Part shown: positions 1 to 14,320 of the stretch, piece by piece
Numbering within the stretch: the first letter of the stretch is position 1
How the letters are laid out: every line of letters begins with the position of its first letter
From: an uncultured Lachnospiraceae bacterium
GTDB taxonomy: Bacteria; Bacillota_A; Clostridia; Lachnospirales; Lachnospiraceae
Length of the DNA: 14,383 nt
Assembly: GCA_947564305.1 (NCBI GenBank)
Contig: CANOBT010000139.1
Coordinates: 1-14,383 of the forward strand
Direction of reading: 5' to 3'
The notes under the pieces: model-generated
Seen by the model: only the letters and a program-made list of their open reading frames with translations
Told to the model about the DNA's origin: nothing
Database searches by the model: none
Made by a program: the position numbers and the translations under genes

Positions 1-957
1 TGCATCTGAACAGTTGTTGCTTCTTACCATCATCGATGCCTCCGCCGAGCCAAACTCAAGGCACCTTCTTATATCCCAGCCCTGAAACAGTCCATATAAG
101 AATCCTGCCCCATACCCGTCTCCACCGCCAAACCCTTTTCTGGCAGTTACCGGAAATGGCTTAACAGTATACTCCTGTCTATCATTTGTATATGCTGACG
201 AGCCTTCCATTCCATGCTTGATTACAACAATTTTTGCCTGATATCCCTGCCATAATGCTGCACTTTCCCTGTCTGATGCCCCAGGTAATATCAATTTTTC
301 CATCAGGTCAAATTCCTCCCTGGATCCCATAATAATATCCGCCTCTTTTGCGATAATCGAAGTATATATTGCTATCTCGTCTTCATTTTTCCAATTATAG
401 TTTCGGTAATCAATGTCAAAAATAATTCTGGTTCCGTTTTTTCTTGCAAGCATAGCCGCCTTTATCGCCGCTTCACGAGACGGGCTTTCTGAAAGTGCCG
501 TGCCAGAAATCAAAAGTGCTTTTGCATTTTTGACATATTCTTCGTCAATTTCTTCTGTCTGAAGCTTAAGGTCTGCAGCACAATTCCTGTACATTAAAAT
601 CCGGCTTTCTTTTTCTGACAGCATTTCCGTAAAAGTAAGTCCCAGTTTTTCACCTTTCTTACATCTTCTAATCTGCGAGGTATCTATACCCTGTTCCTTA
701 AAATACTCTAACACAAAATCTCCGAACTGATCATCTGAAACCTTTCCTAAAAACCCTGCTTTCATTCCGTGGCGGCTTATTCCTACTGCAATATTTGCCG
801 GTGAGCCTCCAACAAACTTTTCAAACATATGTACTTCCTTTAGAGGTTTAAATTCTTCTTTTATCTGTTTATTGTACGCCGGATTAAAATCAATCGTCAC
901 ACGCCCTAATAAAATCAAATCAAATTTCCTTGACACATCAAAATCAATATATTTCAT
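1..957 (-). CDS. iolC: IolC-like PfkB-family sugar kinase (5-dehydro-2-deoxygluconokinase), 3' end cut by window
   Basis: The frame reads 319 codons without a stop from ATG at 957 to base 1, so the C-terminus (perhaps 15-20 residues) lies outside. The translation begins MKYIDFDVSRKFDLILLGRV and carries the PfkB substrate motif VGGSPAN at residues 49-55 and the catalytic FGGGD (Asp280) near the end. Stretches such as TFTEMLSEKESRILMYRN, SGTALSESPSREA and DYRNYNW line up closely with IolC as I recall it from Bacillus subtilis. IolC phosphorylates 2-deoxy-5-keto-D-gluconate in myo-inositol breakdown, in the cytoplasm. The start is supported by AGGAGG just upstream of the ATG. The gene follows the ManA homologue after 15 bases, in the same operon. 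The subfamily call is fairly firm; the exact substrate is inferred, since other sugar or sugar-acid kinases share the fold. Confidence 0.85.
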   Translation of the reverse strand, partial: MKYIDFDVSRKFDLILLGRVTIDFNPAYNKQIKEEFKPLKEVHMFEKFVGGSPANIAVGISRHGMKAGFLGKVSDDQFGDFVLEYFKEQGIDTSQIRRCKKGEKLGLTFTEMLSEKESRILMYRNCAADLKLQTEEIDEEYVKNAKALLISGTALSESPSREAAIKAAMLARKNGTRIIFDIDYRNYNWKNEDEIAIYTSIIAKEADIIMGSREEFDLMEKLILPGASDRESAALWQGYQAKIVVIKHGMEGSSAYTNDRQEYTVKPFPVTARKGFGGGDGYGAGFLYGLFQGWDIRRCLEFGSAEASMMVRSNNCSDA

Positions 958-972
958 ATCTCCTCCTGCCGT

Positions 973-1908
973 CTAAACTGTAGATACAATAATCTGCATC
1001 GCCCCGCACATTTTTACCCTTCCAAATCCCCAGGGAAGTATAAAATGCCGCCCTTTGCGGATAAAAACTCCATTCAGGAATCCCCTTCCGCTGACTACCG
1101 TCATAATTAGAAACGGAACATTTCTGGTAAAAGTAAACTCCCCGGAAACCTTTACCTCCCACACCTGGTAATGTTCTGTTGAAATCATCTGGTTCAGCCT
1201 GTTTTCCGGAAAATCCTGTGTATGGACAATGCTCCCTTCAATTGGAGTTTCCGGTACATTCATAACTTCAAGACCTTTTTCAATATGGAGCTTTCTGGCT
1301 TTTCCTCTGCCTTTTCTGCCATAATCATATATCCTGTATGTAAGATTACTGCTTTGCTGTGTTTCCAGAAGCATCACGTGAGCCGTTATAGCATGCATCG
1401 TTCCCGCGTTAATCTGGATAAAATCTCCCCTTTTTATGGGCACCCTTCGAATCAATTTTTCCCATTCTCCAGCTTCAATTAAACACTTTAACTGCTCTTT
1501 AGACCTTGCCTGATGCCCAATCACCAAAGCTGCCTCCTGGGGGCAGTCAAGTATATACCAGCATTCCTCTTTCCCCTTTGCACCATTCTCATTTTCCCGG
1601 GCATAGTCATTTCCTGGGTGCACCTGTATACTCAGTTTGTCCTGTGCATCAATAATTTTTACGAGAATCGGAAATTCTTCCATATCTAGATTTCCAAACA
1701 GCTGTCTTTCTTCTCTCCAAAGTTCAGAAAGCTTTTTCCCTCTGAATGTTCCTGACTGGATCCTGCAGTCTCCGTCCGGATGTGCGCTGACCCCCCAGCA
1801 TTCACCTGTGTTTTCTCCGGGAAGCTCATAAGCAAAGTCTTTTCTCATTCTATTTCCGCCCCAGACCGTCTGCTTAAAAACCGGCTTTAAAAATAAGAGT
1901 TCAGCCAC
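973..1908 (-). CDS. manA: Class I mannose-6-phosphate isomerase family cupin (ManA-like)
   Basis: This is a 311-residue protein of the short Firmicute ManA type, normally a cytoplasmic zinc enzyme interconverting mannose-6-phosphate and fructose-6-phosphate. Visible family features are the N-terminal VWGG, the metal-binding QVHP (Gln95, His97), Glu115 in the KEECWYI segment, His172 in AGTMHAI, and Arg192 in LTYRIYDYGR. All expected metal ligands and the active-site Arg are present, so it should be functional. The start codon is GTG at 1908, preceded by AGGAGG with seven bases spacing. This start lies inside the end of the upstream isomerase gene (22-base overlap), suggesting translational coupling. 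A stand-alone mannose role is possible, but its place between IolB- and IolC-like genes suggests it may isomerise a pathway-specific aldose or aldose phosphate. That specific role is inference. Confidence 0.85.
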   Translation of the reverse strand: MAELLFLKPVFKQTVWGGNRMRKDFAYELPGENTGECWGVSAHPDGDCRIQSGTFRGKKLSELWREERQLFGNLDMEEFPILVKIIDAQDKLSIQVHPGNDYARENENGAKGKEECWYILDCPQEAALVIGHQARSKEQLKCLIEAGEWEKLIRRVPIKRGDFIQINAGTMHAITAHVMLLETQQSSNLTYRIYDYGRKGRGKARKLHIEKGLEVMNVPETPIEGSIVHTQDFPENRLNQMISTEHYQVWEVKVSGEFTFTRNVPFLIMTVVSGRGFLNGVFIRKGRHFILPWGFGRVKMCGAMQIIVSTV

Positions 1909-2654
1909 TTATGTTCCTCCTCATCAATTCTTGTTTTTTTCCATGGTTCCCCCTCCAGATGACGTATTCCCCATAAATAGCACATTGTATACCCAGGCGC
2001 AGATACCTGTGAATGAAATCCCCTGTCAATAGCCAGCAGCCCGTTATGGTGCGACACTTCGATGCCTCCGTTTCCAAAAGCCGCCCCAAATCCCTGCGGC
2101 CGGTCAAACCGGTAAAAATACACCTCTGGCTGCGGGTGGCGGTGGGGCGGATATGAAGACCATTTCCCCGGATAGTTCAGGACTTCCCCTAATACCATAT
2201 TCGAATATGGCGCATTATCATAATCAAAAAATGTTTTAATATCCCGTCTCACACATCCGTCCAGCTCCTGGTTTCTGCCTGTTTCTTGTATCTGTATATC
2301 ATATGGTGAAAGTATTAACGGGTCATACATTCTTTTATTTACTGTTTTTTGAATGTAACATTCACAGTGGCTGCCGGCGGATACTGAAACCTCGTATCCA
2401 TTTGGAAAAAGCATACACCATGCTTCTTCATGAAACATATCTCTTCTGGATATAGAGAACCGCTTTTTTCCATATGTAACATCTGCCCTGCCCTCCAGTA
2501 AAACGATTGCCATCTCCTTATCCATATTCTTTTCTCTATGCACTTCACCCTCATCCATAATCAAAAGACCCACATCCATCATAGTTCCGTAATCATTTTC
2601 TTCTGCGTTGATATAGGAATTATATCCATTCTTTACTTTCTTTTCTAAATACAT
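1887..2654 (-). CDS. iolB: IolB/KduI-family isomerase (5-deoxy-glucuronate isomerase-like)
   Basis: The protein has 255 residues from ATG at 2654. It is a bicupin of the KduI/IolB family. Diagnostic is the stretch GEVLNYPGKWSSYPPHRHP (residues 156-174) followed by EVYFYRF: His171, His173 and Glu177 look like the metal ligands, with His214 in GFHSQVSAPGY as the likely fourth. IolB converts 5-deoxy-D-glucuronate to 2-deoxy-5-keto-D-gluconate, the substrate of IolC, which lies two genes downstream; this pairing strengthens the call. The frame could begin at TTG 2687, but that codon has no ribosome binding site and touches the aldehyde dehydrogenase end. ATG 2654 has a weak AAGAGA upstream and leaves a 25-base gap. 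Compared with B. subtilis IolB as I remember it, the loop between the HRH and the Glu is shorter by roughly 15 residues, so substrate identity is less certain than family. Confidence 0.8.
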   Translation of the reverse strand: MYLEKKVKNGYNSYINAEENDYGTMMDVGLLIMDEGEVHREKNMDKEMAIVLLEGRADVTYGKKRFSISRRDMFHEEAWCMLFPNGYEVSVSAGSHCECYIQKTVNKRMYDPLILSPYDIQIQETGRNQELDGCVRRDIKTFFDYDNAPYSNMVLGEVLNYPGKWSSYPPHRHPQPEVYFYRFDRPQGFGAAFGNGGIEVSHHNGLLAIDRGFHSQVSAPGYTMCYLWGIRHLEGEPWKKTRIDEEEHKWLNSYF

Positions 2655-2679
2655 GGCAGTCTCTTCTTTCAATTTGTTG

Positions 2680-4122
2680 TTATGCAAATATTTTTTTCAA
2701 TGCTATCGTCTTCGTATTTGACATTTCTGCAAGCGTATATGCAACTCCCTCATGCCCGAACCCGGACTTCTTGTGTCCGCCAAAAGCCTGATGGTTATGG
2801 CGGTAATTAGAGCTTCCATTAATAATACAGCTTCCCGCCTCCATTTTCCTGGCGATGTGCAGCGCTTTCTTGATATCTTCCGTCATAACCGCGCTCTGCA
2901 GTCCATAGGGGATATCATTAGCAATGGAGACAGCCTCTTCTATTGTGTCAAAACCAATGATCGGAAAGACCGGGCCAAATATTTCCATCTCATGCGCCAC
3001 ATTCATCTCACCTGTGACATCATCAAGAATTGTCGGCTCAATAAATGCATGGTTAAAGCGATGCCCTCCATATACCAGCTTTGCTCCCTGGGCAATCGTA
3101 TGGTTTATCTGTCTTTCTACTTCAATGGCCGCCTTTTCGCTAATAACTGGTCCCATCTCTGTCTCGTAGTCATGCAGGTCACCAATCTTTACTTTTCCTA
3201 GTGCATCTTTAAGCTTTGTGACAAACTGCTGTCTGATGCTGTTCTGTACAATATACCGTTTACTTGCGCAGCAGGTCTGCCCTGCATTACCAATTCTTCC
3301 TGACACAGTTTCTTTCACCGCTTTATCTAAATCACAGTCCTCAAAGATGATCATCGGGTCATTTCCACCAAGCTCCATGTGACATTGATGAAGATTTCCG
3401 GCACAGCGCTCCATAATACTTTTTCCCGTCTCGCAGCTGCCTGTTACACTTACAAAATCAATGCCCGGATGGCTCACCAGCAAATCACCCATATCCCCCC
3501 GCCCGGTCAGAATCTGCAGGGCATTTGCAGGAACACCTGCTTCCAAAAGGAGATCTGTAATGAAAACATTCGCAAGAGGCGTATCTGAAGCCGGTTTTAC
3601 AATTACGGAATTCCCCATAAGGAGTGCAGGAATCGTCTTAAAGCAGTACAAATTTGTCGGATAATTAAAGGGAACAATGTTAACAACAATTCCTATCGGC
3701 TCTCTAACGGTCAGAATCAGGTCGTCTTTTGTCCCCGGCTCTGCATCTGCCGGAATCATATCTCCGGTAAAATTTCTCGCTTTTTCCGCAAATGCCCTGC
3801 ATATATAAGCGCTGCAGTGAATATCCTCTTCTCCCATGGAAACAGGTTTTCCATTCTCCGTAATCTCATACTCCACAAGCTTTTTAAAATTTTCTTCTTT
3901 CTCCAATAAATCAGCAAAACGATAAACACAGTTAATTCTTTCGTAAAGAGGGGTTTGGGACCATTCCTTTAATCCTTTTCCTGCATTTGCCACTGCCCTG
4001 TCAATGTCCTCCTGCCCTGCGGCTGGCACTGTATCGATGATCTCCTGTGTTGCCGGATTGATTACCTCTATCGTCTTTCGTCCCTCTCCGCTTATATGTT
4101 CTCCTCCAATAATCATATACAT
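2680..4122 (-). CDS. NAD(P)-dependent aldehyde dehydrogenase (SSADH/lactaldehyde dehydrogenase-like)
   Basis: This is a complete 480-residue ALDH-superfamily enzyme oxidising an aldehyde to its acid. The oxyanion Asn153 is in PFNYP, the cofactor Lys176 in VIVKPAS, the nucleotide-binding turn in VTGSCETGKSI (residues 226-236), the general base Glu250 in MELGGNDP, and the catalytic Cys284 in GNAGQTCCAS. The adjacent second cysteine (Cys285) is seen in some family members. It resembles succinate-semialdehyde/lactaldehyde-type enzymes and lacks the features I associate with IolA (CoA-acylating methylmalonate-semialdehyde dehydrogenase). It should therefore not be assumed to be IolA in spite of the iol-like neighbours. 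The ribosome binding site AAGGAGGG overlaps the stop codon of the glycyl radical enzyme gene 16 bases upstream, pointing to coupled translation. The likely role is to oxidise an aldehyde made by the glycyl radical enzyme or transketolase; the substrate is unknown. Confidence 0.88.
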   Translation of the reverse strand: MYMIIGGEHISGEGRKTIEVINPATQEIIDTVPAAGQEDIDRAVANAGKGLKEWSQTPLYERINCVYRFADLLEKEENFKKLVEYEITENGKPVSMGEEDIHCSAYICRAFAEKARNFTGDMIPADAEPGTKDDLILTVREPIGIVVNIVPFNYPTNLYCFKTIPALLMGNSVIVKPASDTPLANVFITDLLLEAGVPANALQILTGRGDMGDLLVSHPGIDFVSVTGSCETGKSIMERCAGNLHQCHMELGGNDPMIIFEDCDLDKAVKETVSGRIGNAGQTCCASKRYIVQNSIRQQFVTKLKDALGKVKIGDLHDYETEMGPVISEKAAIEVERQINHTIAQGAKLVYGGHRFNHAFIEPTILDDVTGEMNVAHEMEIFGPVFPIIGFDTIEEAVSIANDIPYGLQSAVMTEDIKKALHIARKMEAGSCIINGSSNYRHNHQAFGGHKKSGFGHEGVAYTLAEMSNTKTIALKKIFA

Positions 4123-4138
4123 CTTTCACTTTCCCTCC

Positions 4139-6436
4139 TTAAATACCATGCTTTACCCTGTTTATTAACGAATCCTGATGCTCCTTTGCCAGAGCAATGA
4201 AGTACGCCGACAGCCCTCCCATACGGACGCGCAGGTTCTTATGCTCCATTGGGTGAAGCTGCGCGTCAAGAAGCTCCTCTTCCCTCACTCCCGTAATTGT
4301 CAGAATCAGTCCTCCCAGCTCCAGAAATGACTTAATCAATGCAGACACCCTTTCAAGACCGGCCTCTCCTTTCGCCTCATTTGCGTTAATCTGGATATCT
4401 AATGGACAGCCTGTATTATAACGAGTCAAATCTGGCTTTGTGATGGACTTTATTACTGCCGTTGGGCCATTTAAATCAACGCCCACTGACGGTGAATAAT
4501 TACTTGATACTGGCGCGCTTTTAAGCCGTCCGTCACAGGAAGCCCCTATATTGTGTCCAATCGACATATAAGTTTCAAATGTGGCAATCCCAAGAGGAAT
4601 ATACAGATCCTCTGAATCAATTTCAGATAATGTCTCATCCAGAAGTCTTTCCATATCCTTTAAAAGACTAGCGGAGAAATCATCTGCGTAGGAATTATCG
4701 TTGCCAAATTTAGGCACACGGTTTATAACCATCTGCCGTAATACTTCATCATTCTCAAAATTCTTTTCTGTTGCTTCAATCAATCGCTCCATTGTTACTT
4801 TCTTTTCTTCAAACACCAGCTTTTTGATAACAAGCAGGGAATCAACCGCATTGGAATATCCTGTCAGCATAAAAGGATAAATATTGTATTTTGCCCCTCC
4901 GTTTGATAGATCTAGTCCTGTTTCAATACAGTCGTCCATCACGGTAGAAAGAAGAGGTGAGGGCGCGATTTTATAACGGTCAAACCGATATTTCAATTTG
5001 CTTCTTAATATGAATCCCATTCTCTCCTTAATGAGAGGCAGATAATATTTCTGATAGAATTCCTCAAAGGAAGCACATTCAGCAGCATCTCCAACATCCC
5101 TTGCCTCCTTCCTGCCTCTCACAAGGCTTCTCCCACGATGCATAGCATATTCCAGTATCTGAAGAAGATTCACATACTCAAATCCAAAGTTCGTTTTTCC
5201 AGGTATCAAAACCTCCCAGCACCCGTCATTGGAATAATCTCTTGCGTCTTCAATCGGAATTCCCATATCCGTAAGGCCTTTAATAATGTATTCATCATTA
5301 TAAATTGCCGGCTCCCCGGCCCCTTTTCTCAAAATATCGGCCACCAGATCGTACAATTTGCGGGGACTTCCTTTATGAAATCTCACAGAGGCAACAGGCT
5401 GTACCAGCTCAAGATAGTTCCACATCTCTATGAACAGGTAAGTCAGCTCATTCGCAGCATCTTTTCCGTCCCTGGTCTGTCCTCCTACAATCAAATTCAT
5501 AAGAGATTGATTGGCGCTGGTTCCTTTGTTATAATCCTGATCATTTTCCAGATAAAAGGAACCGGCAAAATCCTCCGGAGAACCTCCGTCCGACTGATCC
5601 ATCGGGATCTCATGGCCTTCTTCAAAGAATTCAGGAAGAATCTGAACACGTTCACTGAACTTTGCAAGCCAGCTTGCTATCAGTTCTCTTACGTCCTGTT
5701 CTTCTACAATTCCTTCATCAATATCATGTCTGTAATAGGGATAAAAATATTGATCAACACGCTGTAAGGGCACCAATTCCAGCGTACTTTGCAGCGCCGC
5801 CATAAAAAAATAAATACTCTGCAGCGCTTCATGCAGGGTTTCCGCCGGGTTCTCCGGAACCTTATTACAGATTTCCGCAATTTTGATAAGCTCTGCTTTT
5901 CTGGAAGGGTTCTTTTCTTTTGCCGCATAATCCACGGCAAGCTGTGCATAGCGAAACGCCAGCTCCTGCACTGAATTCAGGCTTATAATCATGGCCCGGT
6001 ACAGATTAATCTTTTCACAGTCAGCTGCCTCCTTTTTTGTTTCCTCCCAGAGCTTTCCATAGATTTCCCTTCTGATTCCTCTAAGCCCCAGCTTCAATAC
6101 CTTAGCATAATCCCCGGGATGATGCCCCCAGACTGATTTATAAGTATAACAAGATTTTAATGCCTCCTCCTTCTCCTCTGGCAGAGCATAATCCGGGAAT
6201 TCATATCCAAGTCCTGTCGATGCCATTGTACAGATTCCGACAATTAATTCATCTGGTTTTATCTCCACCGGCATATGACGCATCACATGTTCTATCCCCA
6301 GAGCCTTGCGCACAACCAGGGGCTCCTTTTTTATTTCTTCATTGACCAAAATCGTTTCGTCCATTCCCCACCATTCTTTTTTAGTTACAAATTCCTTGTT
6401 CCACAGCCGGTCTTTTATTCTTTCAATCCTTCCCAT
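4139..6436 (-). CDS. Glycyl radical enzyme of the pyruvate formate-lyase superfamily, probable dehydratase/eliminase type
   Basis: The protein has 765 residues from ATG 6436. Near the middle SNDGCWEVLIPGK holds the thiyl-radical cysteine Cys406 followed two residues later by Glu408. A Cys-x-Glu pair is typical of diol dehydratases, choline lyase, sulfonate lyases and arylacetate decarboxylases; pyruvate formate-lyase has Cys-Cys instead. The C-terminal glycyl radical loop reads LRVRMGGLSAYF, with the radical glycine expected at Gly741 and Leu where most members have Tyr. It acts in the cytoplasm anaerobically after activation by the radical SAM protein encoded immediately upstream, with which it overlaps by 14 bases. 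An in-frame ATG at 6463 has GGAGG only two bases upstream, whereas 6436 has AGGAGG at seven bases, so 6436 is chosen. Length is close to PFL and glycerol dehydratase. The substrate is not recognisable; the trp in GCWE (usually Val) argues against the well-known GCVE enzymes such as CutC. Confidence 0.92.
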   Translation of the reverse strand: MGRIERIKDRLWNKEFVTKKEWWGMDETILVNEEIKKEPLVVRKALGIEHVMRHMPVEIKPDELIVGICTMASTGLGYEFPDYALPEEKEEALKSCYTYKSVWGHHPGDYAKVLKLGLRGIRREIYGKLWEETKKEAADCEKINLYRAMIISLNSVQELAFRYAQLAVDYAAKEKNPSRKAELIKIAEICNKVPENPAETLHEALQSIYFFMAALQSTLELVPLQRVDQYFYPYYRHDIDEGIVEEQDVRELIASWLAKFSERVQILPEFFEEGHEIPMDQSDGGSPEDFAGSFYLENDQDYNKGTSANQSLMNLIVGGQTRDGKDAANELTYLFIEMWNYLELVQPVASVRFHKGSPRKLYDLVADILRKGAGEPAIYNDEYIIKGLTDMGIPIEDARDYSNDGCWEVLIPGKTNFGFEYVNLLQILEYAMHRGRSLVRGRKEARDVGDAAECASFEEFYQKYYLPLIKERMGFILRSKLKYRFDRYKIAPSPLLSTVMDDCIETGLDLSNGGAKYNIYPFMLTGYSNAVDSLLVIKKLVFEEKKVTMERLIEATEKNFENDEVLRQMVINRVPKFGNDNSYADDFSASLLKDMERLLDETLSEIDSEDLYIPLGIATFETYMSIGHNIGASCDGRLKSAPVSSNYSPSVGVDLNGPTAVIKSITKPDLTRYNTGCPLDIQINANEAKGEAGLERVSALIKSFLELGGLILTITGVREEELLDAQLHPMEHKNLRVRMGGLSAYFIALAKEHQDSLINRVKHGI

Positions 6437-7331
6437 CCGTACTCCTCCTTTGCCCTTCTCCATAACCTCCGATATTTACCCGAAGACCATATTCCTTCAA
6501 TATCGCCGCTCCTTTATGCAAAGCCTCTTCTGTGGGCGGCAGATAATCGTAACATTTATACTCTAAGCTCAATTCTTTCCATTTTGACTCTCCGAACTGA
6601 TGAAACGGAAGCAGATGAATCTCTCTGATCCTGCACTCTGCCGCAATCTGTGCCATTTTTCTCAGATTCCATGCCATATCATTTACACCTGGTATAAATG
6701 GCATCCGGATAATGACATTCGCCCCTGCCTTCGTTATTTTCTTTAGGTTATATAAAATCCGTCCATTCCCATGCCCTGTATATTTTTTATGAAGCTTTGT
6801 ATCTGTGTGCTTGATATCGTAAAGAAACAGATCACACCATGGCAGCAGCAGTTCAAAGTTGTCATATGTACAGTAACCGCTGGTCTCTATTGCTGTAGAA
6901 ATACCGGCTGTTTTACATTTTTCAAAAAGCTCACGGCAGAATTTTGCCTGCAGCATGGGTTCCCCGCCGCTTGCTGTTACTCCGCCTTTGCTGTTTTTAT
7001 AGAACACTTCATCCTCTCTTACCTTTTCAAAAACCTGATCGGCAGTAAAAATACTCCCTGCAATCCTGCGTGCTTTCGCATAACATTCATCTACACAAAG
7101 TCCGCAGCTTTTACAGTTCATCCATTCTCCATAAGCTGCTCCACTGGGGCACACCTTCTTACAGCTTCCGCACCCTATACACAGCTGTGGATTTAGCATA
7201 AGCTGAAAAGAGGTTTTTCTTGTCTCTGGATTCTGGCACCACAGACAGCCAAGAGGACATCCTTTAAAAAACACGACGGTCCGGATACCCGGTCCATCGT
7301 GTATAGAAAATTTCTGGATATCCGTAATCAT
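6423..7331 (-). CDS. Glycyl-radical enzyme activating protein (radical SAM, three [4Fe-4S] clusters)
   Basis: The protein has 302 residues from ATG 7331. It uses S-adenosylmethionine to abstract a hydrogen from the glycine of the partner enzyme encoded next. The start IQKFSIHDGPGIRTVVFFKG is the classic activase beginning, leading into the radical SAM cysteines Cys25, Cys29 and Cys32 (CPLGCLWC). A ferredoxin-like insert follows with CIGCGSCKKVC (Cys51, 54, 57, 61) and CKSCGLCVDEC (Cys73, 76, 79, 83), then the SAM-binding SGGEP at 121-125. This insert is present in activases of dehydratase-type enzymes and absent from PflA, in agreement with the partner's Cys-x-Glu site. The open frame extends into the transketolase gene. 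ATG 7331 is chosen because GGAGAG lies seven bases upstream; ATG 7346, two bases after the transketolase stop, is an alternative that would add five residues. Confidence 0.93.
   Translation of the reverse strand: MITDIQKFSIHDGPGIRTVVFFKGCPLGCLWCQNPETRKTSFQLMLNPQLCIGCGSCKKVCPSGAAYGEWMNCKSCGLCVDECYAKARRIAGSIFTADQVFEKVREDEVFYKNSKGGVTASGGEPMLQAKFCRELFEKCKTAGISTAIETSGYCTYDNFELLLPWCDLFLYDIKHTDTKLHKKYTGHGNGRILYNLKKITKAGANVIIRMPFIPGVNDMAWNLRKMAQIAAECRIREIHLLPFHQFGESKWKELSLEYKCYDYLPPTEEALHKGAAILKEYGLRVNIGGYGEGQRRSTDGKD
6444..6449 (-). promoter_or_regulatory. Ribosome binding site deciding the glycyl radical enzyme start
   Basis: AGGAGG lies seven bases before ATG 6436, inside the end of the activase gene. 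The in-frame ATG 6463 has GGAGG only two bases away, too close for normal initiation. Confidence 0.8.
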
Positions 7332-7338
7332 TGCTTTT

Positions 7339-7344
7339 CTCTCC
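7339..7344 (-). promoter_or_regulatory. Ribosome binding site deciding the activase start
   Basis: GGAGAG lies seven bases before ATG 7331. The alternative ATG 7346 has only a GGTGA at a similar distance. Confidence 0.6.
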
Positions 7345-7348
7345 ATCT

Positions 7349-8314
7349 TTATTTCACCGCAATGCTTTTTTCCTTCCGGGAAACTACTCTTATTGCCTTT
7401 TCTGCAATATGCTCTGCTGTCAGTCCATATGCCTGCATGACTTCCCATGCCTCCCCGGAATGACCGAATTTGTCCTGGACACCGACATATTCTAAAGGAA
7501 CCAGACATTCCTCACAAATCACTTCTGCAACTGCCGAGCCAAGTCCGCCAATAATATTATGCTCTTCCGCTGTTACGATTGCTTTTGTTTCCCGTGCTGC
7601 CCGTATGATAATCTCCCTGTCAATTGGTTTAATTGTATGTATGTTTATCACCCTCGCGTAAATTTCCTTTTCCTTTAGCAAGTCAGATGCCTTCAGCGCC
7701 TCCTGAACCATCAGCCCTGTAGCAATAATTGTTACGTCATTACCCTCCGCCAGTGTGATTCCCTTTCCAATTTCAAAATGATAATCCTGAATCCGGTTTG
7801 TTACTGTTTCCACAGCCGGCCGTCCCGTGCGCATAAAAACCGGCCCCTCATATTCCAGCATCGCCTTTACGGCCTGCTTAGTCTCATATCCGTCACATGG
7901 AGACAGCACTACCATATTAGGCACTACCCGCATAAGTGCCAGATCTTCGATACATTGATGTGTAGGGCCGTCTTCGCCAACAGTGAGTCCTACATTCGTC
8001 CCCACAATTTTTACATTGAGCTTCGGGTATGCCACAGAATTCCGGATCTGGTCATACGCACGTCCTGCCGTGAACAAACCAAACGCATGACAAACCGGAA
8101 TTTTTCCGTTTGCTGCAAATCCTGCGCCCATTGCAATCATGTTGGCCTCCGCAATTCCGATTTCAAAGAACCGCTCCGGGCACGCTTCTCCAAATACTCC
8201 TGACATTGTACATCCCGCCACATCTGCCTCCAGCGCATATACCCTCTCATTTGGAATACCATATTCCAGCAATGCTTCACCATAGGCTGCACGTGTAGAA
8301 ATTTTCTCCAGCAT
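7349..8314 (-). CDS. Transketolase, C-terminal subunit (pyrimidine-binding plus C-terminal domain)
   Basis: This 321-residue protein is the second half of a two-subunit transketolase. FFEIGIAEANMIAMGAG near residues 49-65 contains Glu56, expected to contact the aminopyrimidine of thiamine diphosphate. It is followed by GEDGPTHQCIEDLALMR (residues about 118-134) and the C-terminal transketolase domain from about residue 190. It needs the N-terminal subunit encoded two bases upstream to form the active site at the interface. GGAGG lies seven bases before the ATG. Split transketolases are common in archaea and Firmicutes, and dedicated copies occur in catabolic operons such as the apulose-4-phosphate transketolase AptA/AptB and the sulfoquinovose transketolase pathway. 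A pathway-specific substrate is therefore likely here rather than general pentose phosphate duty. Deoxyxylulose phosphate synthase is excluded by the split and the surroundings. Confidence 0.9.
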   Translation of the reverse strand: MLEKISTRAAYGEALLEYGIPNERVYALEADVAGCTMSGVFGEACPERFFEIGIAEANMIAMGAGFAANGKIPVCHAFGLFTAGRAYDQIRNSVAYPKLNVKIVGTNVGLTVGEDGPTHQCIEDLALMRVVPNMVVLSPCDGYETKQAVKAMLEYEGPVFMRTGRPAVETVTNRIQDYHFEIGKGITLAEGNDVTIIATGLMVQEALKASDLLKEKEIYARVINIHTIKPIDREIIIRAARETKAIVTAEEHNIIGGLGSAVAEVICEECLVPLEYVGVQDKFGHSGEAWEVMQAYGLTAEHIAEKAIRVVSRKEKSIAVK

Positions 8315-8316
8315 AT

Positions 8317-9159
8317 TTATCCCTCCAAATCCGTTATTGCTCTGTCTAATTCCTGAAATGCAATTTTATATTCCTCCTCTGTCGGGCGTCCCCCGTGGAA
8401 ACGTATCTGGTTCTCAAATACTGAAACACCTTTCCCCTTAACTGTATCCATGATGATTGCCGTTGGATGCCCATTTCTTTCGGATGCCTGGTCGATTGCA
8501 TCCGAAAGGCTCTGCATACTATGTCCGTCACAAAGAATTACATTCCAGTTGAATGCCTTAAATTTCTGATCCAGCGGATAAGGCGACATAATTTCTTCGC
8601 AGTTTCCATCCAGCTGCAGTTTATTATTATCTACAATACAGATTAGATTATCCAGAGCGTAGTTCCCTGCCGCCATCGCTGCTTCCCAGTTCTGCCCTTC
8701 CTGAGTCTCTCCATCACCCACTACCACAAACACCCGGTAATCCTTCTGATCACACTTTGCAGAGAGGGCCATACCGGCTCCGACACTAAGTCCCTGCCCC
8801 AGAGATCCTGTGGACATATCCACGCCCGGAATATGATTCATCTCCATATGCCCTGACAAATATCCTTTTAGCTTTCTAAATCCCCTCATATCCTCAAGAG
8901 GGAAAAAACCCCGATATGCCAATGTCGCATACACTGCCGGACAACAGTGTCCTTTTGAAAGAATAAAACGATCCCTGTTTTCCATATGCGGATTCCTCTC
9001 ATTGACATTCATCTTATCGAAATATAGTATTGTCAGCAATTCAACAATTGAAAAAGAACCTCCGATATGCCCCGAGTTAGCTGTCCGTATTGCTTCAAGT
9101 GTAACTTTTCTTGTTTTAGCTGCCTGTAATTTCAGCTCTCGTATTTTCTCTGCTTCCAT
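8317..9159 (-). CDS. Transketolase, N-terminal subunit (thiamine diphosphate-binding)
   Basis: This 280-residue protein binds the diphosphate and metal of thiamine diphosphate. The motif starts at Gly148-Asp-Gly (GDGETQEG) and ends at Asn178-Asn179 (IVDNNK), the usual spacing. Other signatures are SGHIGGSFS near residue 30, SKGHCCPA near residue 68, and STGSLGQGLSVGAGMA at about residues 116-131. Together with the following subunit it transfers or releases a ketol (two-carbon) unit in the cytoplasm. It starts 13 bases after the permease stop, with AGGAG upstream, and so joins the transporter genes to the catabolic genes. No defect is visible. The physiological substrate is not readable from sequence. 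Confidence 0.92.
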   Translation of the reverse strand: MEAEKIRELKLQAAKTRKVTLEAIRTANSGHIGGSFSIVELLTILYFDKMNVNERNPHMENRDRFILSKGHCCPAVYATLAYRGFFPLEDMRGFRKLKGYLSGHMEMNHIPGVDMSTGSLGQGLSVGAGMALSAKCDQKDYRVFVVVGDGETQEGQNWEAAMAAGNYALDNLICIVDNNKLQLDGNCEEIMSPYPLDQKFKAFNWNVILCDGHSMQSLSDAIDQASERNGHPTAIIMDTVKGKGVSVFENQIRFHGGRPTEEEYKIAFQELDRAITDLEG

Positions 9160-9172
9160 TCTTCCTATTCTC

Positions 9173-10318
9173 CTATTTTTTCTTTGCTTTGCTTGCGATA
9201 TCCAGCCACACTGCCAGAATCAGTACAACACCCTTGATCAGATACTGCCAGGTGGTTCCCATATTCATAAGAGCCATCCCATTGTCAAGACTTGCCATGA
9301 TTACTGTACCTAAGATTGCCCCGATTACCGTCCCGCTTCCGCCCAGTGTAGAGGTTCCGCCCAGAATACATCCTGTAATTGCACTAAATTCAAATCCCGT
9401 TCCTGTCGTTGCAGATGCCTGCCCTATCCTGCCAAGATAAATAACCGATGCAAGTGCTACCACAGCACCGTGAATCAAATATACGCAGAATGTTACTTTT
9501 TTCGTGTTAATGCCGGAAAGCTGCGCGGCATCCCTGTTGTTTCCAATCGCATAGATTCCCCTCCCATACGGAGTGTTAAGTCCGATAAATGTCATTACTG
9601 CTGCTAAAAATGACAGGATTACCACTGCAATTGGAATTCCTTTATATGAAGTCAGCAGGAATCCTACCAAAGCCACAATTAAAGAAATGCTTCCTGCTTT
9701 AAGAAAATCTATTCCTATCCCCGAAGTTTCAAAGCCATATGCTTTCTTTGATTTACGCTGGCTGAAAACAACGGCAAATACAATTGATACAAATATTATG
9801 ATATAAGCAGTTGATAATACCGGGGAAAGACATCCTTTTCCATATTTTGCAAAAGCTTCTTTTGCAGGTCCTACTGACATCCCCTTACCCACAAAAAGCG
9901 TCAGGCCTCTGAAAATATTCTGTCCGGCAAGCGTAGCTATAAAGGCCGGCATTCCCTGATATGCAACCCAGTAGCCGTAAAACGCGCCTATCATAATTCC
10001 TACGCCTACAGTAATAACAATTGTCAGAGATACATCAACATTTTTCTGCTGCAGGGTCGCTGCCAGTGTGCACAAAAAACCAAGCGTGGCGCCCGCGGAC
10101 AGGTCAATCCCTCCGATAATCATGACATACACCATGCTGCAACCAATAACAGCATAAGTACATGACTGCATAAACAAATTATTTATATTGGCATTTCTTA
10201 AGAACAATCCGCCTGAAACTGCCTGAAAAACAATGAAAATAATCACCATCTCTATAACAAGCGAAAAACGGAAGATGTTCTTTTTCCAAGAAATTCCTTT
10301 TTTACTAGTCTCTCTCAT
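9173..10318 (-). CDS. CUT2-family sugar ABC transporter permease (XylH-like)
   Basis: This 381-residue integral membrane protein has a run of about ten hydrophobic segments, the first at residues 18-36. IIGGIDLSAGATLGF (67-81) is the conserved CUT2 permease segment and YAIGNNRDAAQLSGI (256-270) is the cytoplasmic coupling loop that meets the ATPase. The C-terminal LDNGMALMNMGTTWQYLIKG (344-363) closely resembles XylH-type permeases. It forms a homodimeric channel with the ATPase encoded upstream. Its ATG overlaps the ATPase TGA by four bases (ATGA), a sign of tight coupling. CUT2 systems move xylose, ribose, galactose, multiple monosaccharides or inositol. The ligand here is not determined. 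Confidence 0.9.
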   Translation of the reverse strand: MRETSKKGISWKKNIFRFSLVIEMVIIFIVFQAVSGGLFLRNANINNLFMQSCTYAVIGCSMVYVMIIGGIDLSAGATLGFLCTLAATLQQKNVDVSLTIVITVGVGIMIGAFYGYWVAYQGMPAFIATLAGQNIFRGLTLFVGKGMSVGPAKEAFAKYGKGCLSPVLSTAYIIIFVSIVFAVVFSQRKSKKAYGFETSGIGIDFLKAGSISLIVALVGFLLTSYKGIPIAVVILSFLAAVMTFIGLNTPYGRGIYAIGNNRDAAQLSGINTKKVTFCVYLIHGAVVALASVIYLGRIGQASATTGTGFEFSAITGCILGGTSTLGGSGTVIGAILGTVIMASLDNGMALMNMGTTWQYLIKGVVLILAVWLDIASKAKKK

Positions 10319-11838
10319 TTTTGTCCCCCTTCAATGGCGGATGCCATAATATTCTCCTGTGTTGCCTCATGCCAGTCAATCTCTCCGCTCAAATGACCCT
10401 CACTCATGACATAAATGCGGTCGCTCATCCCGAGAATTTCGGGAAGCTCGGACGAAATCATAATAATGCACATTCCTTCGTCAACCAGATTATTCATTTC
10501 ATTATAGATTTCCTGCTTTGCCCCCACATCGATTCCCCTTGTAGGCTCATCTAGAATCAGTACCTTGGGCGCGGTCATCAGCCATTTCCCAATTACGACC
10601 TTCTGCTGATTTCCTCCGCTTAACGCTTTCACCTCCTGTTTCAGCGAAACAGCCTTCACCTTCATCAAATCCACATAATGCATTGTTCTCCTGATCTCTT
10701 CATTTGTCACAATCGCACCATGCCGGCAAAGCTTTTTCAGGCTGGCTAAGGACATATTTGTCTTTATATCAGACTCCAGAATCAGGCCGTAATGTTTTCT
10801 GTCTTCGGACACATAACCAATTCCTGCCTCAATTGCCTTCTTAGGGCTTGTAATCTTTACTCTTTTTCCGTCAAGATACATCCTGGATTCTGCAGCTGCA
10901 TGATAATATCCAAATATACTAAGCGCCAGTTCTGTCCTTCCTGCTCCCATCAGACCGGCAATACCAAGAATCTCACCCCTGCGGGCCGTCAGATTGACCT
11001 TGCTGCACATCTCATGTTCCGGATACTCCGGATCGAAAACCGTCCAGTTTCGAAGCTCTAAAACATCCTCCCCCGGAGTATGCTCCTTTCTCGGAAACCG
11101 TTCATTAAGCTGGCGGCCTACCATGTATGAAACAATCCTGGCTTCTGTGAGATTTTGAACCTCCTCTGTAATAATTGACCTTCCGTCCCGGATAATTGTT
11201 GCTGTATCTGCAATCTTAAAAATTTCATTTAGTTTATGGGATATATAGACACAGGTGGTTCCTTCAGCCTTCAATTCCCGGATAATCTGCATAAGATTTT
11301 CAACATCCATGTCTGACAGGGAGGAAGTCGGCTCATCCAGAATCAGCAGCTTCGGTTCTTTATTTAGCGCCTTTGCAATCTCGATCAGCTGCTGCTGGCC
11401 TGCTCCCAGCTCTCCTACCGTTGTTTTCGGATCCACCTTCAGATGCACACGCATAAGCAGCTCCTTTGTCCTCTTAATCTGTTCATTCCACTTGATCACG
11501 CCTCTGTATTTTATCTCGTCTCCTAAGAAAATATTTTCACAGATATTCATCGACTTAATCAGAGTCAGCTCCTGAAAAATAATTGCAATGCCTGCCTGTT
11601 CACTTTCCTTGATGTCTCTGTACTGCTGCTCTTGGCCATTAAGAAGAATCTGCCCTTCATAGGTTCCATACTGCCAAATTCCACTTAGTATCTTCATCAT
11701 CGTAGATTTTCCGGCTCCATTTTCACCGATCAAGGCATGAACATCGCCCCTTTTTACCTTAAATGTAACGTCATCAAGTGCTTTTACGCCGAAAAACTCT
11801 TTTGTGATATGTTCCATTTGCAGAATAAAATCATTCAC
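10315..11838 (-). CDS. CUT2-family sugar ABC transporter ATP-binding protein (two fused ATPase domains)
   Basis: The protein has 507 residues from GTG 11838, close to the MglA/XylG length. The first nucleotide-binding domain has Walker A GENGAGKST (38-46), a signature-like LGAGQQQLIEIAKAL and Walker B LLILDEPTSSLS. The second has the degenerate Walker A GLMGAGRTE, which lacks the Lys-Ser/Thr pair as is usual in CUT2 ATPases, then LSGGNQQKVVIGKWL and LILDEPTRGIDVGAKQEI. It energises sugar import at the inner face of the membrane. The open frame extends to a GTG at 11910, but that codon lies in the intercistronic hairpin. GTG 11838 has AGGGG six bases upstream and makes the N-terminus normal, so it is preferred. 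It overlaps the permease start by four bases. Confidence 0.9.
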   Translation of the reverse strand: MNDFILQMEHITKEFFGVKALDDVTFKVKRGDVHALIGENGAGKSTMMKILSGIWQYGTYEGQILLNGQEQQYRDIKESEQAGIAIIFQELTLIKSMNICENIFLGDEIKYRGVIKWNEQIKRTKELLMRVHLKVDPKTTVGELGAGQQQLIEIAKALNKEPKLLILDEPTSSLSDMDVENLMQIIRELKAEGTTCVYISHKLNEIFKIADTATIIRDGRSIITEEVQNLTEARIVSYMVGRQLNERFPRKEHTPGEDVLELRNWTVFDPEYPEHEMCSKVNLTARRGEILGIAGLMGAGRTELALSIFGYYHAAAESRMYLDGKRVKITSPKKAIEAGIGYVSEDRKHYGLILESDIKTNMSLASLKKLCRHGAIVTNEEIRRTMHYVDLMKVKAVSLKQEVKALSGGNQQKVVIGKWLMTAPKVLILDEPTRGIDVGAKQEIYNEMNNLVDEGMCIIMISSELPEILGMSDRIYVMSEGHLSGEIDWHEATQENIMASAIEGGQK

Positions 11839-11844
11839 AGGTTT

Positions 11845-11849
11845 CCCCT
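11845..11849 (-). promoter_or_regulatory. Ribosome binding site deciding the ABC ATPase GTG start
   Basis: AGGGG lies six bases before GTG 11838, in the 92-base gap after the binding-protein gene and past the hairpin. Confidence 0.65.
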
Positions 11850-11863
11850 TTCTTTCCATCCAC

Positions 11864-11910
11864 TTATTAAAATGCGCCTTCAGGAAAACTAACCTTTCCC
11901 GAAGACGCAC
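11864..11910 (-). terminator. Intercistronic hairpin with short U run between binding protein and ATPase genes
   Basis: On the minus-strand transcript, arms 11909-11895 and 11887-11873 pair over 15 bases (13 Watson-Crick, two G-U), with a further G-U possible and a loop of five to seven bases. The RNA then reads UUUUAAUAA. The stem starts 21 bases after the binding-protein stop and ends before the ATPase ribosome binding site. It probably acts as a partial terminator and/or 3' stabiliser giving more binding protein than ATPase and permease. It also rules against the longer ATPase start at 11910. Confidence 0.75.
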
Positions 11911-11930: not shown

Positions 11931-13022
11931 TTAGTTCCCATAAATTGCAGCTTTATCGCGCAGTCCTGTATCAATCAAAAGCTTGTTAATCTCCTCTTCA
12001 TTTGTTACCAGTGTAGCAGAACATGTAATAGACGGAACCTCCATCACACCATTATCGTATTTATCCGTAATTTCAAAGTTTGTAATCTCTCCATCGTTTT
12101 TAATTAAGTCCACGATAGTATCAACCGCAAGAACCGCCTGTTTCTCCGTATCCTGTGCCGTAGAGCATGCCTGAAGCCCTGCAATAATATTTTTACATGC
12201 CGTAACGTCTCCATCATTACCGGTCACTACAACAGAGCCATCATTTTTGCCTACACTATCCAGCGCCTGCATCGCACCGGATGCCACCCCATCATTTGCG
12301 CAGATAACCGCAGCAATATCGTTATCATTTGCAGCCAGTGCTTCTTCCATATTCTTCATGCCGGATTCTGCCGACCAGCTTTCACAGTACTGCTCCATAA
12401 CAATCTTAATATCTCCCTTATCAATTGCATCCTGAAGCACCCCGTACCAGCCTTTCGGATAATCCGTAACATCAGGTGTTGAGCCTACATCACCATTTAG
12501 TAAAACATAGTTTCCTTTTGGTGCCAGAGAGTAAGCATATTCAGCATTTAGTTTCCCTACTTCTGCATTGTCAAACATTGTAATCATGTCAATCTCACAG
12601 TTTTCCGGCAGACGGCAGTATGCTGCAACATAGATGCCTGCATCATGTGCATCCTGTAATGCCGTTCCGATAGAACTTGCATCTACCGGACAGCAGATAA
12701 TTCCGTCTACACCCTGACTTATAAGACTCTCAATCTGTGTCTGCTGTTTTGCCGAATCGTTATCTGCTACTTGAAGCATCAGCTCTATATCATCACGCTC
12801 TTCATTAATCGCTTCAAAATAGTTGTAATCATTCTGCCAGCGCTCCTCCTGCAAAGTCGGCATACAAACACCGATTTTCAGAACATCACTTCCGCTTTCC
12901 TCTTTATTCTCCGCAGTTTTATCTCCCTCTGTATCCTGCGTTCCTCCACATCCCGCAATCAGCACTACAGCCATAACCACAATTAAAAGTATTCCAGACA
13001 ACCTTTTTATGCTTTCTTTCAT
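11931..13022 (-). CDS. CUT2 sugar ABC transporter substrate-binding lipoprotein (XylF-like)
   Basis: This 363-residue protein is exported and lipid-anchored: basic MKESIKR, a hydrophobic stretch, then the lipobox LIAGC with Cys25. An acidic linker leads to a periplasmic-binding-protein fold beginning near VLKIGVCMPTLQEERWQNDY. The ERWQ element, MFDNAEVGKLNAEYA, PKGNYVLLNGD and VVVTGNDGDVTACKNIIAG correspond to segments of D-xylose-binding protein XylF and its relatives. Residues at ligand positions differ from XylF as I recall it (AAYCRLPE for the xylose protein's AYDR, GNDGD for GQDAD), so a ligand other than xylose is plausible. AGGAGG lies seven to eight bases before ATG 13022. A hairpin follows the stop codon, a usual arrangement for raising binding-protein levels above those of the membrane components. 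Confidence 0.91.
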   Translation of the reverse strand: MKESIKRLSGILLIVVMAVVLIAGCGGTQDTEGDKTAENKEESGSDVLKIGVCMPTLQEERWQNDYNYFEAINEERDDIELMLQVADNDSAKQQTQIESLISQGVDGIICCPVDASSIGTALQDAHDAGIYVAAYCRLPENCEIDMITMFDNAEVGKLNAEYAYSLAPKGNYVLLNGDVGSTPDVTDYPKGWYGVLQDAIDKGDIKIVMEQYCESWSAESGMKNMEEALAANDNDIAAVICANDGVASGAMQALDSVGKNDGSVVVTGNDGDVTACKNIIAGLQACSTAQDTEKQAVLAVDTIVDLIKNDGEITNFEITDKYDNGVMEVPSITCSATLVTNEEEINKLLIDTGLRDKAAIYGN

Positions 13023-13099: not shown

Positions 13100-13975
13100 C
13101 TATTCACCAATTGGACTCGTAAATTTCACCCACGCAGACATAAAATTGTCCCAGTCGGCGGATAGAATTCCAAGGTATAAAATATCTGTAATCACCATCT
13201 GTCCGATACAGGTAGCCATAGAAAAATTCATAAGGTCAGAATTTACCTTTGGAGTAAAGATTGCAAAATCTGATTTTTTCACTAACTGTGATTCTGGATT
13301 TCCTGTAACTGCCACTGTTTTTGCCCCTACTTCAGCGGCGTATCTGATTGCATCTATTGTTGTTATAGTTTCCCCTGAATAAGAAAACCCAATGGCAATA
13401 TCTTCCTTTGTAATCACAGGTTTTCCAATCTGTGCCCAGCTGTCCTCTCTGTATACCCGGCAGTCAAGGCCAAGCTTTACGAGACGGAACATGAACTCAT
13501 TCACCACATTTCCAGAATAGCCTACACCATATAAATCAATTCTCTTCGCATGAATCATATGCTGGACAATATCCCATATTTTGTCCAAATCCAGCATCTG
13601 TGTCACATTCTGCACCATTGTACTCATCTGATCCACCATAGTGTTTGCCATTTCAGGAAAAGATGCATCTTTTTTTACAAACGCCTCCTCCATATTCACA
13701 AAAGCATTTATTTCATCCTCAGCCAGCCTTTTCTGTTTTTTCTGAAAATCAAATTTCAGAACCTCACGTTTAAATTCTACAAAGCTGGTATATCCGATTT
13801 TTTTTACAAAACGCATTATGGAAGGTTCGCTTGTCTGACATCCATGCGCACACTGGGCCAATGTCTCATAAGGAATTCCCTGTTGATTACCCAAAATATA
13901 ATCTGCAATCCTTTTTTCAGTTTTTGAAAACTCCGCATACTTTCCATATATTACCTGTGCCAGATTTTTTTCCAT
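13100..13975 (-). CDS. RpiR/MurR/HexR-family transcriptional regulator
   Basis: This 291-residue protein has an N-terminal RpiR-type helix-turn-helix domain (about 1-77) with a recognition segment TSEPSIMRFVKKIGY at residues 48-62. A SIS sugar-phosphate-binding domain spans about 130-270, with DLYGVGYSG (147-155) and the phosphate-loop-like SYSGET (198-203). Such regulators bind palindromic operators and are released or tightened by a phosphorylated sugar; several inositol (IolR of Salmonella and rhizobia) and glycolytic (HexR) regulators belong here. It is the first gene of the operon, and AAAGGAGG precedes ATG 13975. The upstream region holds palindromes matching a HexR-type site, so autoregulation and control of the whole operon and the divergent gene are likely. 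The inducer is unknown, possibly a phosphate made by the IolC-like kinase. Confidence 0.93.
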   Translation of the reverse strand: MEKNLAQVIYGKYAEFSKTEKRIADYILGNQQGIPYETLAQCAHGCQTSEPSIMRFVKKIGYTSFVEFKREVLKFDFQKKQKRLAEDEINAFVNMEEAFVKKDASFPEMANTMVDQMSTMVQNVTQMLDLDKIWDIVQHMIHAKRIDLYGVGYSGNVVNEFMFRLVKLGLDCRVYREDSWAQIGKPVITKEDIAIGFSYSGETITTIDAIRYAAEVGAKTVAVTGNPESQLVKKSDFAIFTPKVNSDLMNFSMATCIGQMVITDILYLGILSADWDNFMSAWVKFTSPIGE

Positions 13976-14086: not shown

Positions 14087-14101
14087 TGTAGTTTTACTAC
14101 A
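14087..14101. promoter_or_regulatory. Perfect RpiR/HexR-type operator, regulator-proximal copy
   Basis: TGTAGTTTTACTACA is a perfect palindrome with arms TGTAGT and ACTACA around a three-base centre. It is the exact reverse complement of the site at 14321-14335. It lies just downstream of the candidate leftward promoter, where bound protein would block transcription of the regulator and the operon. It fits the HexR consensus TGTARTWWWAYTACA as I recall it. Confidence 0.85.
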
Positions 14102-14114
14102 TCTTGTGACATTT

Positions 14115-14143
14115 ATATTAGCATCCTGTTTTCAAAAAAACAA
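14115..14143 (-). promoter_or_regulatory. Candidate promoter of the rpiR-led operon
   Basis: On the minus strand a -35-like TTGTTT (14143-14138) is separated by 17 bases from TAATAT (14120-14115), which is preceded by TGC, an extended -10 element. Transcription would begin near 14108, placing the perfect operator at about +7 to +21 and giving a leader of roughly 130 bases. Prediction by eye only. Confidence 0.5.
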
Positions 14144-14192
14144 TATGTAATTTTTCCTATTTTTACGCACATATTTTTGTTCATTTTGTATA

Positions 14193-14234
14193 TTTAATTA
14201 CAAATTTCACTATGCTATATTAAGTATATATAAA
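14193..14234 (+). promoter_or_regulatory. Candidate promoter(s) for the divergent plus-strand gene
   Basis: Two overlapping possibilities exist: an extended -10 TGCTATATT at 14213-14221 with a poor -35 (TTTAAT, 14193-14198), and TTCACT (14206-14211) with 17 bases to TATAAA (14229-14234). Another -10-like TATATT lies at 14314-14319 between the two distal operators. The AT-rich context makes a choice uncertain. Confidence 0.35.
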
Positions 14235-14236
14235 TA

Positions 14237-14250
14237 TGATTTTAAAATCA
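14237..14250. repeat. 14-bp perfect palindrome
   Basis: TGATTTTAAAATCA is a perfect palindrome just after the candidate -10 TATAAA. It differs from the TGTAGT operator and could be a site for another regulator or a chance AT-rich palindrome. Confidence 0.4.
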
Positions 14251-14268
14251 AGGGTTCTTACACCTTGA
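14248..14268. repeat. Short inverted repeat TCAAGG-N9-CCTTGA
   Basis: Six-base arms at 14248-14253 and 14263-14268 are separated by nine bases. It is one of the few GC-containing patches of the control region. It could be an operator or a small leader hairpin; no U run follows directly, so it is not a clear terminator. Confidence 0.4.
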
Positions 14269-14295
14269 GCAGAATCAATTCATTTTTTCTATATT

Positions 14296-14310: not shown

Positions 14311-14320
14311 TTTTATATTT

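Follow-up and report, generated by a model that had tools for sequence, protein, structure and literature searches.

A glycyl radical enzyme and a split transketolase in a Lachnospiraceae operon: a candidate route for free-hexose degradation through a deoxy-ketose acid

The window studied here, positions 1 to 14,383 of contig CANOBT010000139.1 from an uncultured Lachnospiraceae bacterium, carries an operon that encodes, in order, a sugar ABC importer, a split transketolase (TK), a glycyl radical enzyme (GRE) activase, the GRE itself, an aldehyde dehydrogenase (ALDH), and IolB-like, ManA-like, and IolC enzymes. Our tentative reading is that this operon would take a free hexose through a 5-deoxyhexuronate to 5-keto-2-deoxygluconate (DKG), which the TK would split while IolC opened another branch. 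The observations behind it are the gene content, the motifs, a predicted fold, the recurrence of the gene set, and the loss of a TK histidine; from these we infer the substrate, the order of steps, and the reactions.

In the proposed pathway, the operon would import the free hexose and degrade it anaerobically. With the sugar still unphosphorylated, the activated GRE would dehydrate its terminal diol (R-CHOH-CH2OH to R-CH2-CHO), and the ALDH would oxidize the new aldehyde to a 5-deoxyhexuronate. IolB would convert this product to DKG, that is, 5-deoxyfructuronate, and ManA might help where the C2 epimer is the opposite one. By our own Fischer analysis, DKG should have the 3S,4R ketose (D-threo) configuration used by transketolases. 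The split TK would then move the C2 ketol unit of DKG to glyceraldehyde 3-phosphate (G3P), giving xylulose 5-phosphate and D-malate semialdehyde, the latter to be oxidized to D-malate. IolC would serve as the second branch for DKG, part of which would pass via IolC and an aldolase to dihydroxyacetone phosphate, a potential source of the acceptor G3P, and to malonate semialdehyde, which an enzyme of the methylmalonate-semialdehyde dehydrogenase (MMSDH) type would handle.

The operon comprises 11 near-contiguous genes at positions 1 to 13022, all on the minus strand, with the binding-protein gene (13022) first and the IolC gene (cut at base 1) last. By the listed starts, intergenic gaps from the binding-protein gene through IolC range from -22 to +20 bases; the IolB gene may start at ATG 2654 rather than TTG 2687, which would make the gap upstream of it +25. 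An earlier note on this DNA had listed a CUT2 transporter, a two-subunit TK, a GRE with its activase, an ALDH, and IolB-, ManA-, and IolC-like enzymes. Domain searches recovered all of them, and the common strand and short gaps bear out the single operon that it described. Its range of 1 to 9159 holds the enzyme genes and stops short of the operon, since the CUT2-type transporter (9173 to 13022) also belongs to it and extends it to 13022. The enzymes look active, as their catalytic motifs are intact. The nearest genome, G001, is a Lachnospiraceae metagenome-assembled genome (MAG) with a contig 98 to 99% identical over window positions 1 to 13191, and this near-identical relative was the sole match in a scan of genome contigs.

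The GRE, an enzyme of an oxygen-sensitive kind, pairs a PFL-like domain (PF02901, 462 bits) with a C-terminal glycyl radical domain (PF01228, 54.5 bits). Its Cys-Trp-Glu (CWE) residues (C406, W407, and E408) and radical glycine (G741) are kept in all 71 aligned sequences, and 64 of these have Glu at the position of the propanediol dehydratase His. E408 presumably acts as the general base. Both the predicted fold and the catalytic C-X-E match diol dehydratases. Against the NCBIfam models of characterized GREs, all 11 matches fell under the cut-off (for example, CutC at 368 of 1050 bits and HypD at 374 of 1100), and choline, hydroxyproline, sulfopropanediol, and decarboxylase identities were dropped because every one lay under its model cut-off. 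The enzyme belongs to a divergent CWE branch, its residues are of the dehydratase type, and at least 120 relatives of at least 46% identity are among the matches listed. The gene probably starts at 6436 and not 6463, because AGGAGG precedes the ATG and 13 of 17 aligned rows begin at or after that Met. The activase, which has a CX3CX2C motif and two ferredoxin-type motifs, probably starts at 7346 and not 7508, because its G001 counterpart is 307 amino acids long.

The split TK provides the second line of evidence. Both of its subunits are complete. In alignment, the phosphate motif RSFHR of the human and Carboxydothermus TKs reads RCFNR in the window and RSFDR, KCFDR, and RSFDR in three further GRE-carrying loci (L010, L011, and L012, respectively; see the table). 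The His is missing in all four GRE-linked TKs, with Asn or Asp in its place, and both phosphate-site Arg residues are kept in the window TK. Among 120 listed relatives of the window TK-C subunit, 111 have RCFHR, 5 RCFNR, 2 RVFHR, 1 RCFHC, and 1 RSFHR; Ser-to-Cys is common (117/120) and His-to-Asn uncommon (5 Asn against 115 His). The five Asn relatives are the window's own cluster (P0241), its three nearest neighbors (77 to 82% identity), and one at 65%. The window TK is 52% identical to the Carboxydothermus subunit and 39 to 40% identical to the TKs of L010 to L012, which share 46 to 50% with one another. From these pairwise identities they look like two lineages, in which case this His would have disappeared at least twice in TKs that accompany the GRE. 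The changed motif suggests a shift to a donor whose end carries no phosphate and C2 transfer from a non-phosphorylated ketose. A published precedent is sulfofructose TK, which transfers the C2 unit of a sulfonate-ended ketose to G3P and has the motif RAFDR (PMC11659671). The window TK carries neither this motif nor the classical phosphate-ketose motif RSFHR, and the TKs of L010 to L012 have the Asp without the Ala. The resemblance to sulfofructose TK also fits a reading in which the GRE, instead of being a C-O dehydratase, cleaves a C-X bond of a substituted sugar (a sulfonate, amine, or ether) as a lyase and the TK acts on the remaining substituted ketose, as in the sulfo-TK pathway; we consider this very unlikely. 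GREs that cleave C-S and C-N bonds share the Cys and Glu.

The remaining enzymes connect the GRE and TK to deoxy-sugar acids. The ALDH has intact Cys and ELGG motifs and is 44 to 48% identical to three other GRE-linked ALDHs, the four being mutually 44 to 52% identical. In IolB, the motifs PPHRHPQPE and GFH are intact, as are QVHP, KEECWY, and GTMHA in ManA. IolB is 55 to 62% identical to listed relatives outside its own cluster, and those with names are called 5-deoxy-glucuronate isomerase. The TIGR04378 cut-off, which IolB does not reach, is little informative on this branch, because IolBs that adjoin iolD/E/G in Ilyobacter and Mesomycoplasma, 30 to 33% identical to the window IolB, score just 71.7 and 71.4 bits themselves. 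The intact IolC of G001 (342 amino acids) scores 377 bits on TIGR04382 (cut-off, 300). The link to a deoxy-sugar acid that the earlier note had raised is possible, via IolB/IolC-type intermediates.

The operon is probably not the classical inositol route, because in G001 no iolG/E/D/J follows it over the 2.8 kb to the contig end, no IolD lies over the cut-off, and the sole IolB is in this operon. To the left of window base 1, where the earlier note had proposed to look for iolG/D/E/J, G001 has the end of IolC, a HisA-like gene (PF00977), and then genes that look unrelated by eye; none of the four was seen in the roughly 2.8 kb to the contig end, and the answer holds that far. At the TIGR04377 cut-off, IolD was found in none of three genomes, including G001 (95% complete), compared with 3 of 14 named genomes used as a control. 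The G001 matches to this model score 262, 237, and 19 bits and probably represent different ThDP (thiamine diphosphate) enzymes; an inositol operon defined by iolD was not found in G001. An IolB search at E 1e-20 returned one gene in G001, inside this operon, and only one of eight genomes searched had any. If IolB acts on 5-deoxyglucuronate, another route must then make it; an aldohexose processed at C5-C6 by the GRE and ALDH would yield it. G001 also has five class II aldolases over the Pfam cut-off.

A cyclitol route along the lines of the earlier note is another reading, in which the GRE would dehydrate an inositol, deoxyinositol, or inosose, a TK-like ThDP enzyme would open the ring, and IolB and IolC would finish. 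CUT2 importers can carry inositol, the distant IolBs of Ilyobacter and Mesomycoplasma adjoin iolD/E/G, and IolC is over its cut-off, all of which fit this route. Against it, both TK subunits are present and match TK models with the phosphate-site Arg residues kept, the His is changed as in sulfofructose TK, IolB and IolC occur in just one of the six GRE loci described below, and the malate racemase and malic enzyme of one relative (L011) are left unexplained. We know of no transketolase that opens a carbocycle. An IolD-type ring opening by the TK was dropped as a candidate, with IolD not among the listed matches of its subunits. We regard the cyclitol route as unlikely and favor a TK route by way of a deoxy-ketose acid over ring opening; on this point, the earlier note is probably wrong.

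Support for a coupled radical/TK route comes from the recurrence of GRE, activase, ALDH, and split TK in diverged loci. Six loci were found via the GRE, with the window and G001 counted once and some neighboring genes named by eye; the genome searches were limited to E 1e-180 or 1e-150 and count closer relatives. The activase is present in all six, an ABC importer in five, ALDH in four, the split TK in four (so that the pairing of GRE and split TK in the earlier note does recur), and MMSDH in two. IolB and IolC were found in the window only, and malate genes in L011 only. The MMSDH of L010 (575 bits; cut-off, 448.5) and that beside the operon in G001 (559 bits) are 60.7% identical, and the PfkB kinase, class II aldolase, and MMSDH of L010 are of kinds that could convert DKG to acetyl-CoA. 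L012, which has no ALDH, has an aldehyde ferredoxin oxidoreductase near the GRE (849 to 2753; PF01314 and PF02730), a replacement that would be expected if an aldehyde needs oxidation; its Fe-alcohol dehydrogenase, GntR gene, and a small gene were named by eye only. The L022 contig has no TK and, at 7.7 kb, is uninformative on TK presence.

The same tally bears on a reading in which the operon holds two unrelated sugar modules, with GRE, ALDH, and TK for one compound and IolB, ManA, and IolC for another. L010, L011, and L012 do have a GRE and a TK without IolB and ManA, and ManA lies over the cut-off for mannose-6-phosphate isomerase. The tight gene spacing throughout the operon speaks for one unit, and a deoxyuronate is a plausible substrate to hand on to an IolB-type isomerase; we think two modules improbable.

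L011 offers a clue to the fate of the TK product. Beside its GRE, ALDH, and TK are a LarAH6 malate racemase (572 bits; cut-off, 500), a gene of the malic-enzyme family (374 bits against a longer model whose cut-off is 1178), a type II GAPDH (400 bits; cut-off, 185), and a PGK. LarAH6 racemizes malate in vitro (PMC7583248). By our own reasoning on the Fischer projection, TK acting on DKG would leave a D-malate skeleton, which would explain a racemase ahead of the malic enzyme. At 5050 to 7375, L011 has an archaeal-type GAPDH and a divergent second PGK within a catabolic-looking bacterial operon. This PGK is a second copy (381 bits, versus 548 for the other) and has Ser where four aligned PGKs show Arg or Lys; the GAPDH keeps SCNTTG and has PSHQALD versus PSHHGPD in three compared enzymes. 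Malate semialdehyde is a carboxylate isostere of G3P, and both enzymes could act on it. A more specific form of the pathway, in which the GRE would deoxygenate the free hexose at C5 (and so remove the distinction between L and D), the 5-deoxyuronate would lead to DKG for the TK to split, and, in the L011-type relative, the GAPDH and PGK paralogues would make ATP via malyl phosphate before the racemase and malic enzyme, would be a new pathway; we regard it as rather doubtful.

The malate genes and the Asp or Asn at the TK site would fit equally well if the order of steps were reversed, with the TK acting first on a neutral ketohexose such as L-sorbose to give xylulose 5-phosphate and a tetrose, the GRE making a deoxydialdehyde, the ALDH making malate semialdehyde, and IolB, ManA, and IolC acting on side substrates. 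This order leaves IolB and IolC (the latter at 364 bits against a cut-off of 300) without a role, and the closest published TK motif belongs to the enzyme of an acid-ended ketose (PMC11659671). We give a reversed order little credence.

Several points weigh against the route through DKG. Its main weakness is that the case for DKG combines clues from three operons, each of which may be for a different sugar: one of six GRE loci has IolB and IolC, and one of six has the malate genes. Neither a dedicated malate enzyme nor an aldolase is encoded in the window operon, and the presence of both a TK and IolC is explained solely by supposing a branched route. ManA scores as a mannose-6-phosphate isomerase, a role that the model leaves unused. 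At the TK site the window has Asn and sulfofructose TK has Asp, and the window TK is closer to that of Carboxydothermus than to those of L010 to L012. In L010, the kinase reaches only 106 of 300 bits on the IolC model and the class II aldolase is of a type found beyond the iol pathway; in L013, neither TK nor ALDH accompanies the GRE; and G3P may simply be the substrate of the type II GAPDH and PGK in L011.

Table. Features of the window and the other loci carrying the GRE (percentages are GRE identities)
Feature	Positions	Strand	Evidence, motifs, or gene content
IolC-type 5-dehydro-2-deoxygluconokinase (PfkB), cut by window end	1..957	-	TIGR04382 364 bits, cut-off 300
Class I mannose-6-phosphate-isomerase-like aldose/ketose isomerase (ManA)	973..1908	-	TIGR00218 187 bits, cut-off 116
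IolB/KduI-type cupin isomerase	1887..2687	-	PF04962 165 bits; TIGR04378 97 bits, cut-off 205
NAD(P)-dependent ALDH	2680..4122	-	PF00171 511 bits; best NCBIfam lactaldehyde dehydrogenase 432 bits, cut-off 650
GRE, 765 amino acids	4139..6436	-	C406-W407-E408, radical G741; start corrected from 6463
Radical SAM GRE activase, 307 amino acids	6423..7346	-	TIGR02494 330 bits, cut-off 174; CPLGCLWC and two ferredoxin-type motifs
TK-C subunit	7349..8314	-	PF02779, PF02780; RCFNR at phosphate motif RSFHR; 52% identity to 6yaj split TK, closest solved structure
TK-N subunit (ThDP domain)	8317..9159	-	PF00456 189 bits; GDG..NN motif
CUT2-type ABC permease	9173..10318	-	PF02653; GguB 307 bits, cut-off 450
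CUT2-type ABC ATPase	10315..11910	-	PF00005 x2; best NCBIfam XylG-type 693 bits, cut-off 699
Sugar-binding lipoprotein, CUT2-type ABC importer (XylF-like)	11931..13022	-	PF13407; TIGR02634 227 bits, cut-off 389.55
RpiR/MurR-family regulator	13100..13975	-	PF01418, PF01380; 77 bases upstream of first operon gene
Three operator-like palindromes TGTAGTNNNACTACA	14087, 14296 (one mismatch), 14321; span 14087..14335	.	Upstream of regulator gene
L010 (G016, 63%)			DeoR (by eye), PfkB, class II aldolase, ABC importer, activase, GRE, ALDH, TK-N, TK-C, MMSDH
L011 (G341, 53%)			GFO/IDH oxidoreductase, ABC importer, activase, GRE, ALDH, type II GAPDH, PGK, LarAH6, malic enzyme, TK-N, TK-C
L012 (G085, 42%)			Aldehyde ferredoxin oxidoreductase, ABC importer, activase, GRE, Zn-alcohol dehydrogenase, TK-C, TK-N
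L013 (G149, 40%)			DeoC, ABC importer, GRE, activase, two ROK proteins (first named by eye)
L022 (G939, 43%, 7.7-kb contig)			Zn-alcohol dehydrogenase (by eye), activase, GRE, SSS symporter (by eye), ALDH

The RpiR/MurR-family regulator possibly controls the operon. Between its gene and a plus-strand ATG near 14363 lie the palindromes TGTAGTNNNACTACA, which are possible operators for the regulator. The window has four matches at up to two mismatches, compared with 0.26 expected, and four or more occurred in 1 of 200 shuffles; the fourth match (9374, two mismatches) falls within the permease gene. Identity to G001 ends at 13191, inside the RpiR gene, and beyond that breakpoint G001 (L004, about 7254 to 9466) has an FGGY-like sugar kinase fragment, named by eye, and then the MMSDH gene; the breakpoint reflects either a rearrangement or a MAG assembly error. 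Promoter-like sites (36, versus 30.4 with a standard deviation of 6.1 in shuffles) and terminator-like sites (11, versus 9.8 with a standard deviation of 3.6) in the window were near the shuffled level, an Rfam scan of the window returned no family at threshold, and a tRNA search of it found none.

Relatives of the GRE also occur in other settings. L013 (4779 to 14445) has its GRE near a deoxyribose-phosphate aldolase (272 bits; cut-off, 117), which suggests a route from a pentitol via 2-deoxyribose to acetaldehyde and G3P; one of its two ROK-type proteins was profile-searched and fell below the cut-offs. A scan of viral contigs with the GRE gave seven loci with matches of 25 to 32%, and a plasmid search gave 27.7 to 34.2% identity in the best 20 of 34 records. 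One contig of the viral collection (L014, 6374 to 8165), with genes that look like phage structural genes by eye, has part of a GRE (32%) and an activase (41%) at its end and is either a chimera or a case of a phage-borne fragment. With IolB, the viral-contig scan returned no loci and the plasmid search three records, the best being from Klebsiella (41.6%) with no annotated iol gene nearby.

Among titles and the openings of abstracts in the openly licensed literature, we found no description of a GRE operon with a TK and iol-type genes; this is no proof of novelty, as most subscription papers lie outside that scope. Within it, the operon presents known superfamilies in a combination for which no description was found, and the earlier note was probably right to call it new. 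If true, the proposed pathway would add free-sugar deoxygenation to the known uses of GREs, join radical and TK chemistry in one catabolic route, offer a function for an uncharacterized GRE branch, and provide testable predictions (DKG and D-malate) for anaerobic bacteria.

Among known systems, the GRE shares 28 to 33% identity with diol dehydratases (the B12-independent glycerol dehydratase, PDB code 1r8w, and the Roseburia propanediol dehydratase, PDB code 5i2g). Unlike these, GREs of the window branch carry Trp between Cys and Glu (71/71) and Glu at the propanediol dehydratase His (64/71), and no microcompartment genes were recognized by eye in the loci read. Identity to YbiW and PflD, which have structures with 1,5-anhydroglucitol-6-phosphate and 1,5-anhydromannitol-6-phosphate, is 24 to 29%, and the GRE scores 315 of 1109 bits on NF007437, which we take to be the PflD model. 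Classical inositol catabolism (iolGEDBCJA) has IolB- and IolC-type enzymes and a CUT2-type importer in common with the operon, which has a GRE, TK, and ALDH instead of IolG/E/D/J. The sulfo-TK pathway (SqwGH) of Faecalicatena and Clostridium sp. MSTE9 differs in that sulfoquinovose is isomerized first, not dehydrated, in that its TK motif is RAFDR and not RCFNR, and in its sulfonate genes, none of which were recognized here. This pathway and the operon are alike in having a split TK with a changed phosphate motif, an acid-ended ketose with G3P as acceptor, and a branched flow (PMC11659671), features that in the window operon are partly observed and partly proposed.

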